A DNA stretch of 34,224 nt. Source: Asanoa iriomotensis (lineage in GTDB: Bacteria; Actinomycetota; Actinomycetes; Mycobacteriales; Micromonosporaceae). Where the stretch lies: contig NZ_BONC01000078.1 of the NCBI RefSeq assembly GCF_016862515.1, forward strand, positions 1 through 34,224, written 5' to 3'. Position numbers and translations under genes: made by a program. This document shows positions 23,981 to 29,264 of the stretch, in pieces. Below the pieces are notes generated by a model. That model saw only the letters and a list, made by a program, of their open reading frames with translations. It had not been told where the DNA came from and did not search any database. Every line of letters starts with the position of its first letter. Within the stretch, counting starts at the first letter, position 1.

Positions 23981-24029
23981 CCGGCGTCTCCACCGAGACA
24001 CCGCGCGTCAGGCGTTAAAGGGAGAAATC

Positions 24030-25181
24030 GTGACGCACGTTACTGAGCGGGGCGGCGGCCCGGCCAACACCTCGGGCTCCGACGGTATGCAGCCGTGGAC
24101 GGCCGGCGCGGGACGGTCCAGTCGCAAGCGCACAGTGACGTACGCCGACGCCGGCGTCTCTATCCACGCCGGCGAGCGCGCGGTCGAGCTGCTCAAGAGC
24201 AAGGTGGCCCGGGCGCAGCGGCCGGAGGTCCTCGGTGACCTCGGTGGCTTCGCCGGCCTGTTCCGGCTCGACACCAAGCGCTACAAGAACCCGATCCTCG
24301 CCTCGTCGACCGACGGCGTCGGCACCAAGCTGGTGATCGCGCAGCAGCTCGACATCCACGACACGGTCGGCATCGACCTGGTCGCGATGGTCGTCGACGA
24401 CCTGGTGGCCTGCGGCGCCGAGCCGCTGTTCCTGCTCGACTACATCGCCTGCGGCGAGGTCGTGCCCGACAAGGTCGCCGAGATCGGCGCCGGCATCTCC
24501 GACGGCTGCCGCTACGCCGGCTGCGCGCTGCTCGGCGGCGAGACGGCCGAGCACCCGGGCGTCCTGCGCCCCGACGAATATGACCTGTCCGCCACCGGCG
24601 TCGGCGTGGTGGAGGAGAGCGAGATCCTCGGCCGCGACCGGGTCGAGGTCGGCGACGTCGTCATCGCGATGCGCTCGTCGGGCCTGCACTCCAACGGCTA
24701 CTCGCTGGTCCGCCACGTGCTGCTCGGCGCCGGGCGGATGCGGCTCGACACGGTGGTCGACGACTTCGGCAAGCAGCGCACCCTCGGTGAGGAGCTGTTG
24801 ACGCCGACCAAGATCTACGCCCGCGACTGCCTCAAGCTGATCGAAGAGGCCGAGGTGCGGGCGCTGGCCCACGTCACCGGCGGCGGCATCCCGGGCAACC
24901 TCGTGCGGGTGCTCCCGGAGCACGTCGACGCGGTGGTCAACCGGTCGACCTGGAAGCCGCAGCCGATCTTCGACCTCGTGCAGTCCAAGGGCCGCATCGA
25001 GGACCCGGAGATGGAGTCGACGTTCAACATGGGCGTCGGCATGTTCGCGATCGTCTCCGCCGAGGACGCCGACCGGGCCCTCGCCTTCCTCGCCGGGCGC
25101 GGCATCGACGCGTGGCAGGCGGGCGAGATCATCGAGGGCACGGGGACCGTTCAGATGATCGGCCAGCACACGCGCGGCTGA
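24030..25181 (+). CDS. purM: Phosphoribosylformylglycinamidine cyclo-ligase (AIR synthetase)
   Basis: Converts FGAM to AIR with ATP; 383 residues. Recognised from VTYADAGVSIHAGERAVELLK, SSTDGVGTKLVIA, GIDLVAMVVDDLVACGAEPLFLLDYIA, LLGGETAEHPG and the C-terminal HVTGGGIPGNLVRVLP, all AIR synthetase signatures. The first 35 residues (Gly/Ser/Thr-rich) are an extension not needed for the fold. The GTG at 24030 has AAAGGGAGAA immediately upstream; the reading frame before it overlaps the purF tail in another frame. It lies 49 bases after purF and is followed by the RiPP locus. Confidence 0.95.
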   Translation: MTHVTERGGGPANTSGSDGMQPWTAGAGRSSRKRTVTYADAGVSIHAGERAVELLKSKVARAQRPEVLGDLGGFAGLFRLDTKRYKNPILASSTDGVGTKLVIAQQLDIHDTVGIDLVAMVVDDLVACGAEPLFLLDYIACGEVVPDKVAEIGAGISDGCRYAGCALLGGETAEHPGVLRPDEYDLSATGVGVVEESEILGRDRVEVGDVVIAMRSSGLHSNGYSLVRHVLLGAGRMRLDTVVDDFGKQRTLGEELLTPTKIYARDCLKLIEEAEVRALAHVTGGGIPGNLVRVLPEHVDAVVNRSTWKPQPIFDLVQSKGRIEDPEMESTFNMGVGMFAIVSAEDADRALAFLAGRGIDAWQAGEIIEGTGTVQMIGQHTRG

Positions 25182-25222: not shown

Positions 25223-25251
25223 TTACCCGATTGGCCACCGCCGCCTAACCT
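25223..25251 (+). promoter_or_regulatory. Weak candidate promoter for the RiPP genes
   Basis: In the 110-base gap after purM, TTACCC (25223-25228), a 17-base spacer and TAACCT (25246-25251) give a weak sigma-70-like pair. GATTGG occurs twice nearby (25214 and 25229). No hairpin separates purM from the next gene, so read-through from purM is equally possible. Confidence 0.3.
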
Positions 25252-25291
25252 AAAGTCCTGCCTCGGCACCTCGACGGGGAGAGGAGGGCGG

Positions 25292-26428
25292 GTGGTTGTC
25301 CGGCGGGCCCAGTTCACCGGTATGCGCGGCATCGCCCCCGTGCCTTCCTACGTGGTTATGCAGCCCACGACGCTGTGCAACCTCGACTGCGCCTACTGCT
25401 ACCTGCCCTTCCGGTCAGCCGATCGGAAGATGCCGGTCGATGTGGCGGCCGCGGTCGCCGGGCCGGCCAACCAGTGGGCCCGCGACGGCCGGTTCTCGGT
25501 GGTCTGGCACGGCGGGGAGCCGCTGGCCGCCGGCCGCGACCATTTCGCGGCGCTGCTCGCGCCGTTCGACCCGCGCGTCGAGCACCACGTGCAGACCAAC
25601 GCGACCCTGATCGACGCGGCGTGGTGCGAGTTCTTCGCCGAGCACGAGATCCGGGTCAGCGTCAGCGTCGACGGTCCGCGCGAGCGCAACGGCGACCGGG
25701 TCACCCGGGGCGGCCGGCCCGCGTACGACCGGATCATGCGTGGCATCGAGACCCTCCGCGCGCACGACATCGGCTTCTCCGCCCTCTGCGTGGTCTCCGA
25801 CCCCGCGCCGGGGCGGGCGGCCGAGCTCTACCGCTACTTCCTCGACCTCGGATGCGACGTGCTCGGCATCAACATCGAGGAGACGGAGGGCACCAACACC
25901 CGCGGCAACGCCCACCCGGCCGGCCAGGTCGTCGACTTCTGGGCCGAGTTGGTCGCCGCCTGGCGCCAGGACCCGCGGATCCACGTCCGCGAGATCGAGT
26001 GGTCGCTGCGCTACACCGAGGCGGTGCTGATCGGCACGGCCGACAGCGTGCTGCCGCGCAAGCTCGACCCGATTCCCACCGTCGCCTACGACGGCTCGGT
26101 GGTGCTGCTCTCTCCGGAGCTGGCCGGGTTCCAGGACGCCCGGCACGGCGACTTCAGCAGTGGCAACGTCCTCGCGACACCCCTTACCGAGATCATCGCC
26201 GGGGCACACCGGCGCACGCCCTGGGTCGCCGAGTTCCTCGACGGCGTGGAGGCGTGCCGAGCGAGCTGCCCCTACTTCGGTTTCTGCGGCGGTGCACACG
26301 CGGCAAACCGCTATTTCGAACACGGCCGGTTCGACACGACCGAAACCGACCACTGCCGCAACAGCAAGATCCGCCTACTGGAAGGGGTGTTGCAGCATGC
26401 CCGAGACCACCAGCCTTCGGCCGTCTGA
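25292..26428 (+). CDS. amcB: Radical SAM/SPASM peptide maturase (probable cyclophane-forming, AmcB-like)
   Basis: A 378-residue radical SAM enzyme predicted to modify the small peptide encoded just downstream. The [4Fe-4S]/SAM motif CNLDCAYC gives Cys29, Cys33 and Cys36. HGGEPLAAG follows as the SAM-contact GGE motif. The C-terminus is a SPASM/twitch auxiliary-cluster domain with Cys322, 326, 332 and 355 (CRASCPYFGFCGG...DHC). Peptide-modifying SPASM enzymes with short precursors include the three-residue-cyclophane (triceptide) maturases, and the precursor here fits that chemistry. I remember an actinobacterial family named AmcB; the symbol rests on that memory. The start is GTG 25292 after GGGGAGAGGAGG; an ATG at 25322 is an alternative. 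The 3' end overlaps the precursor gene by 32 bases. Confidence 0.85.
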   Translation: MVVRRAQFTGMRGIAPVPSYVVMQPTTLCNLDCAYCYLPFRSADRKMPVDVAAAVAGPANQWARDGRFSVVWHGGEPLAAGRDHFAALLAPFDPRVEHHVQTNATLIDAAWCEFFAEHEIRVSVSVDGPRERNGDRVTRGGRPAYDRIMRGIETLRAHDIGFSALCVVSDPAPGRAAELYRYFLDLGCDVLGINIEETEGTNTRGNAHPAGQVVDFWAELVAAWRQDPRIHVREIEWSLRYTEAVLIGTADSVLPRKLDPIPTVAYDGSVVLLSPELAGFQDARHGDFSSGNVLATPLTEIIAGAHRRTPWVAEFLDGVEACRASCPYFGFCGGAHAANRYFEHGRFDTTETDHCRNSKIRLLEGVLQHARDHQPSAV

Positions 26429-26636
26429 CCAGGCCGAGGGCGCCGAGGCCGACGCTGATGACCTGGCGGAGCGCGTCAACGGAGCCCGGGCAGGGCTGAC
26501 CGCGCTGCTGTCCGAGGCGGAACACGCGCGCAAGCTACGCGCCGAAGCGGCCGACCCGGCCGGCGGTGCGGTGTGCGCCTGGAACCACTTCGAGAACATC
26601 CCGACGTTCTACAACTGGAACAACCGCCCCCGCTGA
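26397..26636 (+). CDS. amcA: RiPP precursor peptide with aromatic-X-Asn-rich core (AmcA-like)
   Basis: A 79-residue precursor. Residues 1-58 form an acidic, Ala/Glu-rich leader with a predicted helix (LAERVNGARAGLTALLSEAE, about 23-42). The C-terminus after Cys60, AWNHFENIPTFYNWNNRPR, contains five aromatic residues and five Asn, with triplets WNH (62-64), FEN (65-67), YNW (72-74) and WNN (74-76). Aromatic-X-X triplets of this type are where triceptide maturases join an aromatic ring to the third residue's beta carbon. The ATG overlaps the end of the maturase gene in another frame and has GGAAGGGG (26380-26387) upstream. A hairpin terminator follows. No protease or exporter lies beside it, so maturation and release must use genes elsewhere, or the product stays in the cell. 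Confidence 0.82.
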   Translation: MPETTSLRPSDQAEGAEADADDLAERVNGARAGLTALLSEAEHARKLRAEAADPAGGAVCAWNHFENIPTFYNWNNRPR

Positions 26637-26646
26637 CGCGCGTGGC

Positions 26647-26720
26647 CCCGCTGACCCCTCGGACACAGCCGAGCACGCGGGTTACACCGCGTGCTCGTTG
26701 GTGACCTGGGGGTCAGCGGG
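26647..26720. repeat. Outer inverted repeat around the terminator
   Basis: CCCGCTGACCCC (26647-26658) is the exact reverse complement of 26709-26720, the latter running into the last codons of the DUF3073 gene. With the inner 11-bp hairpin it would form one long bulged stem in either transcript, extending the terminator into a composite structure. Confidence 0.6.
26670..26697. terminator. Hairpin terminator between the RiPP precursor and DUF3073 genes
   Basis: 11-bp perfect stem CGAGCACGCGG (26670-26680) with its complement at 26687-26697 and loop GTTACA. It can terminate the RiPP transcript and, from the other side, the DUF3073 transcript. It is nested inside a second inverted repeat (26647-26658 with 26709-26720). 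Confidence 0.75.
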
Positions 26721-26937
26721 AGCGAGACGACCAGTTGTTGGAAGCGTCGTCTTCTGCGTTGTCGTCCTCGTCTTCGTCGTCGACATAGCTGTTGCTGTAG
26801 TCGTCGTCGAAGTCGTGGTCCGACTGGCTGTGGCCGCCGAGTTCTCGCTGCAAAGCGGCGAGGTCGGTGTTCGGGGAGTGATACTTCAACTCCCGGGCCA
26901 CCTTTGTCTGCTTGGCCTTAGCACGGCCGCGCCCCAT
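26713..26937 (-). CDS. DUF3073 family small acidic protein
   Basis: A 74-residue protein of the actinobacterial DUF3073 family (M. tuberculosis Rv0810c type, which also lies beside purF/purM). The N-terminus MGRGRAKAKQTKVARELKY is basic and highly conserved. It is followed by SPNTDLAALQREL and then an extremely acidic, disordered tail (DDDYSNSYVDDEDEDDN). The bipolar charge pattern suggests nucleic-acid or protein binding, but no function is established. The ATG at 26937 begins exactly at the conserved MGRGR; the open frame extends 21 codons upstream as non-coding. It is convergent with the RiPP locus. Confidence 0.88.
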   Translation of the reverse strand: MGRGRAKAKQTKVARELKYHSPNTDLAALQRELGGHSQSDHDFDDDYSNSYVDDEDEDDNAEDDASNNWSSRSR

Positions 26938-28233: not shown

Positions 28234-28424
28234 CGCTGCTCCTGTCGTCACCGCGCGTCCTCGTGGGCCGCACGCACGCTGTGCACTCCGGCGGGGTGGT
28301 GCCGAAGTTTCTGGGGACGACGATATTCCCGTTGGCAACCCGATGCCGCCGCGAGTCGGTGACGACCCGCTGGCCAGATACCCCGTCGTTACGGACGGCG
28401 GCCAATTCGTGGGAGGATCGCGCC

Positions 28425-29264
28425 GTGCCGTCGCTGTTCGCTTCCTACCTGCGCGTCTACGAGCCGTTGACCGCATTCGATCGCGAACGTCAGGTCTTCT
28501 GGCGCCGTTACGTGCGGGAAGGCCGTGCTGTCGCGCCCGCCGAAGGCCCCGTCCGCCAACGCACGGCCGTGATCGAGGGCCTCGGCGCCGGCTGGACCCG
28601 GCTGCCTGACCTGCCCGAAGAGGCCTACGTGCTGGAGGCCGACGACACGCTGCTCGTCTGCCCCTGGAACCTGCGGCTGCGGGTCGCCGAGGCGGCGCTG
28701 AGCGCGCGCGACGGCGTGCCGTCGGTGATCGCCGACGCGTTCGTCCCGCCGGTGCTCGCCGGCCAGGCCCGCGCGGTGGTCGACGACTGGCGCAGCGGGG
28801 CCCGGGTGCTGGAGCACGGCGTGCCGCGGGTGCACGAGCAGATCTCGACCTGGGGTGTGCCGCTGCGCTGGTTCGTCTTCGTCGACCTCGGCGAGCGCGA
28901 CCTGGTGCTGCGCGAGGACCGCCGGTCGCTGCGCTACCGCACGGAGATCTCCAAGGCCCGCCGCCGGGCGTCCCGGGCGCTGTCGGTGCTGCGCAAGTCG
29001 GTGGGCGACGCGCCGATCACCGAGGCGGTCGAGGAGGGTGCGCGGTGGCTCGAGGAGTTCCACCCGCGTTCGGTGGTCGAGCTCGACTACGGCGGCCTCG
29101 TCGACCTGCTCTCCGACACCACTTTGGAAGAGGATGACTCGCCCGGTCTGGTCGCTGCCGGACTGGCCGCTTTGTCCCGCGGTGATGCTGATGGGGCCAC
29201 AGAGGTCTATGAGAACTTGGTCACTCGTTGGCGCGCGATTCAGCTCCTCGAACGGTGTAATTAG
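28425..29264 (+). CDS. Conserved actinobacterial hypothetical protein upstream of bldC
   Basis: A 279-residue soluble protein with no motif I can assign. Visible features: a conserved-looking N-terminus ([28 protein letters not shown]), several Trp/Leu-rich stretches ([35 protein letters not shown]) and a basic helix [25 protein letters not shown] near the middle, followed by an acidic C-terminal helical half ending in [11 protein letters not shown]. No signal peptide or membrane segment. The GTG at 28425 follows GGGAGGA (28411-28417); the open frame upstream is non-coding. Its fixed place between valine dehydrogenase and bldC across actinobacteria suggests a conserved housekeeping or developmental role. 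Confidence 0.8.

Follow-up and report, generated by a model that had tools for sequence, protein, structure and literature searches.

An AmcA/AmcB gene pair after purM in Micromonosporaceae: a conserved core peptide and its predicted bis-cyclophane product

Directly downstream of the purine gene purM, Asanoa iriomotensis carries genes for a radical SAM enzyme and a short peptide; the question here is whether the pair specifies a changeable natural product or a standing component of the cell. We analysed the pair in the window (the whole stretch of 34,224 nucleotides) and in related genomes. The original prediction, made from the letters alone, had read it as a cyclophane RiPP locus and had suggested the names AmcA and AmcB for it.

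25292..26428, plus strand: amcB, radical SAM/SPASM maturase of 378 residues with a GTG start (match to NF041718)
25282-25287, plus strand: AGGAGG, ribosome-binding site for AmcB (direct reading)
25376-25399, plus strand: CNLDCAYC, AmcB residues 29-36
within 26255-26356, plus strand: SPASM Cys322, Cys326, Cys332 and Cys355 of AmcB
26397..26636, plus strand: amcA, precursor peptide of 79 residues (match to NF041722), overlapping amcB by 32 bases

A profile search bears out these names, as both genes score above the curated NCBIfam cut-offs: AmcB reaches 524.4 bits against NF041718 (cut-off 425), with residues 14-370 covering profile positions 1-361 of 362, and AmcA reaches 110.7 bits against NF041722, the AmcA_3a family (cut-off 65). 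The frames 25292-26428 and 26397-26636 are confirmed, and with them the claimed 79-residue peptide and its 32-base overlap with the enzyme gene, an overlap of the same length in 69 of 81 loci. The possibility that AmcA is a chance open frame was ruled out, because the curated cut-offs are passed and the pair recurs in relatives, in 80/80 of those fetched (best 80 of 449 matches). The claimed CNLDCAYC motif and SPASM cysteines are also present; C29, C33, C36, C322, C326, C332 and C355 are invariant in 24/24 aligned AmcB proteins, a hand-chosen set in which six are distant copies from other genomic locations. A site resembling AGGAGG precedes the same or a near AmcB start in most loci with purM upstream, and is absent in a few. 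Comparison with PDB sequences matched AmcB to three entries, two of anaerobic sulfatase maturase and one of ChlB. Judged by sequence, then, the pair is a bona fide AmcAB of a known kind, and its family identity, invariant catalytic cysteines and usual genomic slot are established on that footing.

24021..25181, plus strand: purM, last gene of the purine block and upstream neighbour, start codon putative (Pfam AIRS, AIRS_C)
26670..26697, no strand: inverted repeat of 11 perfect base pairs, located where amcA and the DUF3073 gene converge (by eye)
26713..26937, minus strand: DUF3073 gene, the usual downstream neighbour (PF11273, 88 bits)

The pair had been placed inside the purine cluster; it sits instead after the end of the pur genes, in a slot between purM and the DUF3073 gene. 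A scan of named genomes returned 449 matches, and in 80/80 of the best 80 kept the gene order is an SCP-like gene, purF, purM, amcB, amcA, DUF3073 (reverse) and the dehydrogenase LeuDH (reverse); two short contigs among them (L087 and L111) stop short of bldC. The closest relatives in this set are Asanoa, at 93%. Because they are the best 80 of 449, these loci are biased to close relatives, a lean that the 200-genome sample described below corrects for presence and tail only. The claim that no protease or transporter lies nearby is upheld by Pfam among the seven neighbouring frames scanned, one of which (28353-29261) has no Pfam family. That frame, with zero Pfam matches, is a conserved neighbour between the dehydrogenase and bldC. 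The inverted repeat at 26670-26697 is possibly a two-way terminator lacking a T run; it is absent from the output of a terminator scan that requires such a run.

26568..26633, plus strand: invariant core AVCAWNHFENIPTFYNWNNRPR, AmcA residues 58-79, identical at 21/22 positions in 81/81 loci and at Ile68 in 80/81

Alignment of homologues places the strongest conservation at the end of AmcA, where the sole change in 81 loci is one Ile68 to Val substitution. The original prediction had quoted a 19-residue tail; its letters are right and the tail is conserved, with the core near-identical in the 81 loci, and the conserved block is longer, at 22 residues (58-79) including an invariant Cys60. This Cys60 (26574-26576 in the window) never varies in the 3a core, but the 3b and 3c tails read lack it; it may serve in a crosslink, in metal binding or in dimer formation. 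The edge of conservation at residue 57/58 is sharp across the 81 loci, which suggests cleavage near residue 58. The last 21 codons occur in 58 DNA versions that encode 2 protein versions, giving pS 0.304, pN 0.0011 and pN/pS 0.0037. Elsewhere in the locus, pN/pS is 0.573 in the leader, 0.284 in AmcB, 0.259 in LeuDH, 0.222 in purM, 0.170 in purF and 0.038 in bldC (78-81 loci each); the value of 0.367 for DUF3073 rests on 2 loci and was set aside. Across seven slot genes (50-80 loci each) there are 1784 windows of 22 codons, and the 35 that equal the core in conservation all lie in bldC. Conservation at the level of RNA or of an overlapping gene was ruled out: pS in the core is 0.304, compared with 0.305-0.410 in purM, AmcB, purF, LeuDH and bldC. 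Because synonymous change is normal there, selection acts on the protein, and the AmcA core is under extreme purifying selection, at least among these 81 loci, which are close relatives; tails beyond them vary.

To place the pair across the family Micromonosporaceae (in the GTDB sense), we used 200 evenly drawn genomes, 158 of which contain AmcB above the cut-off. A degenerate tail pattern of 15 residues (Trp62-Asn76, position 68 loose) matches 128/200 genomes in 19/44 genera; in 127/128 the match follows purM, on that gene's strand, at a distance of up to 4 kb, the 128th being without a listed purM row. Of the 72 genomes without the pattern, 32 were searched again and 31 contain AmcB at E below 1e-90, as a slot copy in 30 and as a non-slot copy only in G041. 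Two genomes, G043 and G059, had been candidates for losses; AmcB fragments adjoining purM at contig ends overturn that reading, and both are counted as slot copies. The family total is thus 160 genomes with a slot copy and 39 without, among the latter G035 and G041; G089 stands apart, with purM and the dehydrogenase on separate contigs.

Tails were read in 158 of the 160 slot copies (all except those of G059 and G094; any precursor of locus L197 also falls outside the reading). The pattern is present in 128 of them, another 15 have Phe in place of Tyr72, type 3b accounts for 11 and a third type for 3, and the tail of G033 is reduced. Their forms include FENIPTF(Y/F)NWNNRPR; WRPFEDAFPTFYQFTNRPR and near forms; PRPFEDAFPTFYQFSN(R/S)PQ(R/K); and WRAFSDAFPTFWEFSNRPR and WTDVFTTQFTEFSNRPR. 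The third type, RWTDVFTTQFTEFSNRPR, is found in loci L163, L164 and L165 of one genus (g23), and would lie outside NCBIfam coverage, since the tail from L163, the sole third-type sequence scanned, scores 21.6 bits against AmcA_3b, below the cut-off of 65. Because other genera bear 3b and 3c tails, the AmcA product is, as judged from the encoded tails, not one compound across the family.

26589..26597, plus strand: predicted ring 1, Phe65-Glu66-Asn67 (aromatic-x-N/D in 157/158 slot tails; lost in G033)
26616..26624, plus strand: predicted ring 2, Trp74-Asn75-Asn76 (aromatic-x-N in 158/158 slot tails)

Two triplets recur throughout this variation. FEN, FED, FSD or WTD occurs together with WNN, FTN or FSN in 157/158 slot tails read, and the triplet positions persist even where Phe and Trp swap, so the aromatic-x-x motif by which triceptides are recognized is kept across homologues. 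In the variants, aligned by eye, WNH becomes WRP, WRA, PRP or APR, and an aromatic residue is retained at the third position of YNW. PMC11002830 describes a bond made by OscB between C7 of Trp and C-beta of Asn or Asp, and one made by XncB or OscB between C4 of Phe and C-beta of Asn. Two rings, at FEN and WNN, are therefore a better prediction than four: both triplets persist, WNH does not, the third position of YNW remains aromatic, and these known relatives crosslink Trp or Phe with the C-beta of an Asn or Asp two residues later. The proposal of up to four rings is thus favoured for FEN and WNN and less well supported for the other two, WNH not being kept and YNW ending in an aromatic residue.

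The exception is G033, where the AmcB frame continues into the peptide without a stop (L169:5543-6796). In this fused AmcB-AmcA, with tail CESTGTYYNWNNRSR, YNWNN is kept while FEN and the surroundings of Cys60 are gone, and the view that every slot tail keeps both triplets is wrong, as only WNN remains. Ahead of its radical SAM motif the same protein reads QAN, at a place where QPT is usually invariant. An enzyme kept beside a lost aromatic-Asn tail, the case that the original prediction had named as telling against itself, is thus seen in part and once. G033 may represent decay under relaxed constraint or a changed product, and it speaks against FEN being indispensable.

More than two rings—three, four or a fused system taking in WNH and YNW—is a rather unlikely alternative. 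Both extra triplets are present in the 3a tail, NCBIfam describes AmcA as multiple cyclophane-containing, G033 retains YNW and WNN while losing FEN, and PMC11002830 gives His and Tyr as ring partners in other triceptide enzymes. Against this, WNH gives way to WRP, WRA, PRP or APR, and YNW ends in an aromatic residue, unlike the Asn and Asp acceptors of the kept triplets.

In a sample of the class (394 genomes), AmcB at E below 1e-90 was found in 10, 3 of them family members, and the tail pattern in 3/394, all three in the family. For the seven non-family AmcB, no purM, purF, DUF3073 or LeuDH adjoins within the stretches fetched; six are accompanied by FDN/WDN-type precursors, and none was found for one. 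Five of these seven genomes have purM near DUF3073 with no amcBA between, so the purM-DUF3073 junction is probably older than the amcBA insertion. In one of the six with such precursors (G404, L196:3954-5207), AmcB and its FDN/WDN-type precursor lie in one frame, a natural fusion of the substrate to the end of the enzyme.

Trees were compared for the 95 loci having all four genes. The AmcB tree shares 48/92 splits with the tree of purF, purM and LeuDH combined, compared with at most 2 for shuffled labels; purF and LeuDH share 37/92, and single core genes among themselves 33-37/92. Strong conflicts number 1/32 splits for AmcB and 1/21 for LeuDH versus the pur genes. Slot-linked AmcB (108) are split from other AmcB (21) with support of 0.966. 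Wide horizontal spread of the slot copy was considered and ruled out by the tree congruence together with this split, one strong conflict in 32 splits remaining. In the purF and purM tree, 39/39 placed slot loci fall in one clade (support 0.785) and 12/12 placed negatives outside it, G035 included; these are 12 of the 39 genomes without a slot copy, the other 27, G041 among them, having been left out of the tree. The simplest reading of these trees would be a single gain of the slot copy followed by retention. Because the support of 0.785 is moderate and only 12/39 negatives were placed, loss of amcBA inside the clade may also have occurred. Taken together, the trees show mostly vertical descent of the amcBA slot copy.

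A second use of the enzyme is seen outside the slot. Non-slot AmcB were read in 16 family genomes (L012, L026, L146, L147, L155, L159 and L181-L190), as a second copy in 15 and as the only copy in G041; they are accompanied by FDN/WDN-type precursors and, where measured, are 39-46% identical to the AmcB of the window. Among four non-slot precursors scanned, half of which come from non-family genomes, two scored above and two below the AmcA_1 cut-off. These copies look like accessory clusters, perhaps a separate use of the same chemistry.

Such copies lend some weight to the notion that the slot pair, too, is an ordinary secondary-metabolite RiPP, an antibiotic or colony signal whose stable location is incidental. 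We nevertheless regard this as unlikely. Attack peptides and pheromones usually diversify, whereas the slot core has a pN/pS of 0.0037, in the range of bldC, the slot copy is present in 160/200 family genomes, and its descent is mostly vertical. What favours the notion, besides the accessory-like copies in 16 family genomes with their FDN/WDN-type precursors, is that triceptides are regarded as natural products in PMC12257519.

Tail invariance could also reflect a sequence demand of AmcB in place of a function of the product. The tail differs where AmcB is most diverged, and slot AmcB at 65-73% identity to that of the window go with 3a', 3b and 3c tails, as co-adaptation would predict. Yet AmcB of the same slot lineage serve 3b and 3c tails that keep little beyond the two triplets and an NRPR-like end, distant AmcB go with FDN/WDN repeats, and ring chemistry alone would hardly fix Cys60, His64, Ile68-Phe71 and Arg77-Arg79; we therefore consider this explanation quite improbable. 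The preferred reading remains that the product itself is under constraint. In its common form the core is about as constrained as BldC across many genera while the leader drifts freely, a contrast that suggests a single conserved partner within the cell.

25223..25251, plus strand: promoter-like element TTACCC-N17-TAACCT between purM and amcB (spacer motif count)

The location after purM had raised the question of expression with the purine genes. The purM-amcB spacer is 110 bases long in the window. A generalized form of the element, T[TC]ACCC-N16-18-TANCCT, picked after inspecting the spacers, occurs in 53/91 of them and in 0 when shuffled, and CCTARCCT occurs in 70/91 (21/91 are without it; shuffled mean 0.3, maximum 2). 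A scan for E. coli-type consensus promoters found none in the spacer. One genus (g17) and some others have purM and purF in inverted orientation some kilobases off, with amcBA still next to DUF3073; another genus (g39) and G009 have the inversion on the bldC-DUF3073 side, with amcBA still next to purM. Two different inversions end near amcBA in such loci (L142-L145, L148-L151, L153, L154, L156 and L157), and the junction seems to be a repeated rearrangement point. Because either side is found inverted, neither neighbour is obligatory for amcBA, and because the spacer holds a promoter-like element and the pur genes are inverted away in some genomes, co-expression with purine genes is not obligatory and purM read-through is at most optional. 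That amcBA belongs to the purine regulon, transcribed by read-through from purM and tied to purine or nucleotide metabolism, is very improbable: in most genomes it lies behind purM in the same orientation, but the spacer carries a promoter-like element, and amcBA stays put where purM and purF, or in other genomes the DUF3073-bldC side, are inverted away.

We therefore propose, with somewhat better than even confidence, that amcBA specifies a triceptide-type RiPP, a bis-cyclophane that one large Micromonosporaceae clade keeps as a fixed component and inherits vertically, with one conserved partner and its own promoter. In this scheme the rings and how many there are, binding of the leader, cleavage, promoter function and role are inferred. 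Transcription would start from amcBA's own promoter, with no tie to purine synthesis, and AmcB and AmcA would be made together by way of the 32-base overlap. The acidic, helix-like AmcA leader would offer the tail to AmcB, whose radical SAM cluster (C29/C33/C36) would generate a 5'-deoxyadenosyl radical that abstracts hydrogen from C-beta of Asn67 and Asn76. The resulting carbon radicals would close on the aromatic ring two residues earlier (Phe65 and Trp74), with the SPASM cluster accepting the electron, to give two three-residue cyclophanes and a loss of 4 Da. Cleavage would follow near Gly57/Ala58, probably by an enzyme encoded elsewhere, and the product would meet its one conserved partner as a cofactor, as a signal inside the cell or as a structural ligand.

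The bis-cyclophane chemistry is likely, and we hypothesize a housekeeping role. The AmcA product resembles a standing component of the cell more than a changeable antibiotic. More specifically, and with confidence a little short of even, we suggest that the invariant 22-residue core serves the producer cell as a new RiPP-derived cofactor or a fixed intracellular ligand, its genes having entered the purM-DUF3073 junction a single time and stayed there. The role is open to a gene-deletion test in a tractable Micromonospora or Actinoplanes, and a definite ring number and mass are predicted: the unmodified 22-residue core has a calculated mass of 2748.277 Da, which two rings would lower to 2744.245 Da.

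At the family level, no difference separates the pair from AmcA/AmcB as defined by NCBIfam, with which it shares scores above the cut-offs, a two-gene layout and several aromatic-x-N motifs. These families (NF041722 and NF041718) presumably correspond to Phan and Morinaka's group (2022, ACS Chem Biol 17:3284). GrrM/OscB maturases (TIGR04261) are also radical SAM/SPASM enzymes of aromatic-x-Asn/Asp chemistry; AmcB scores 237.2 bits against that family, below the cut-off of 310, and so falls outside it. PQQ and mycofactocin are RiPP-derived redox cofactors. With these the likeness would be one of working only, an analogy between core genes with an invariant core and a radical SAM maturase that implies no membership; core and chemistry differ, and neither a linked protease nor such a client dehydrogenase lies among the neighbours scanned. 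ChlB (PDB 9gm3), called a multiple cyclophane synthase in the literature, resembles AmcB in the radical SAM domain (residues 25-183, E 1.4e-12), the match being confined to that part. Among the open-access papers searched, no title was recognizable as describing the locus as a conserved Micromonosporaceae feature; a subscription paper on the AmcA/AmcB group lies outside this scope, so absence is unproven. Several triceptide chemistries are known, and PMC12257519 described the bioactivities in 2025 as still to be elucidated. The kind of system described here is already known, and what this analysis adds is its core-genome-like behaviour, with a fixed slot, an invariant core and vertical descent; if the housekeeping proposal is true, it would add a non-antibiotic function to the triceptide class.
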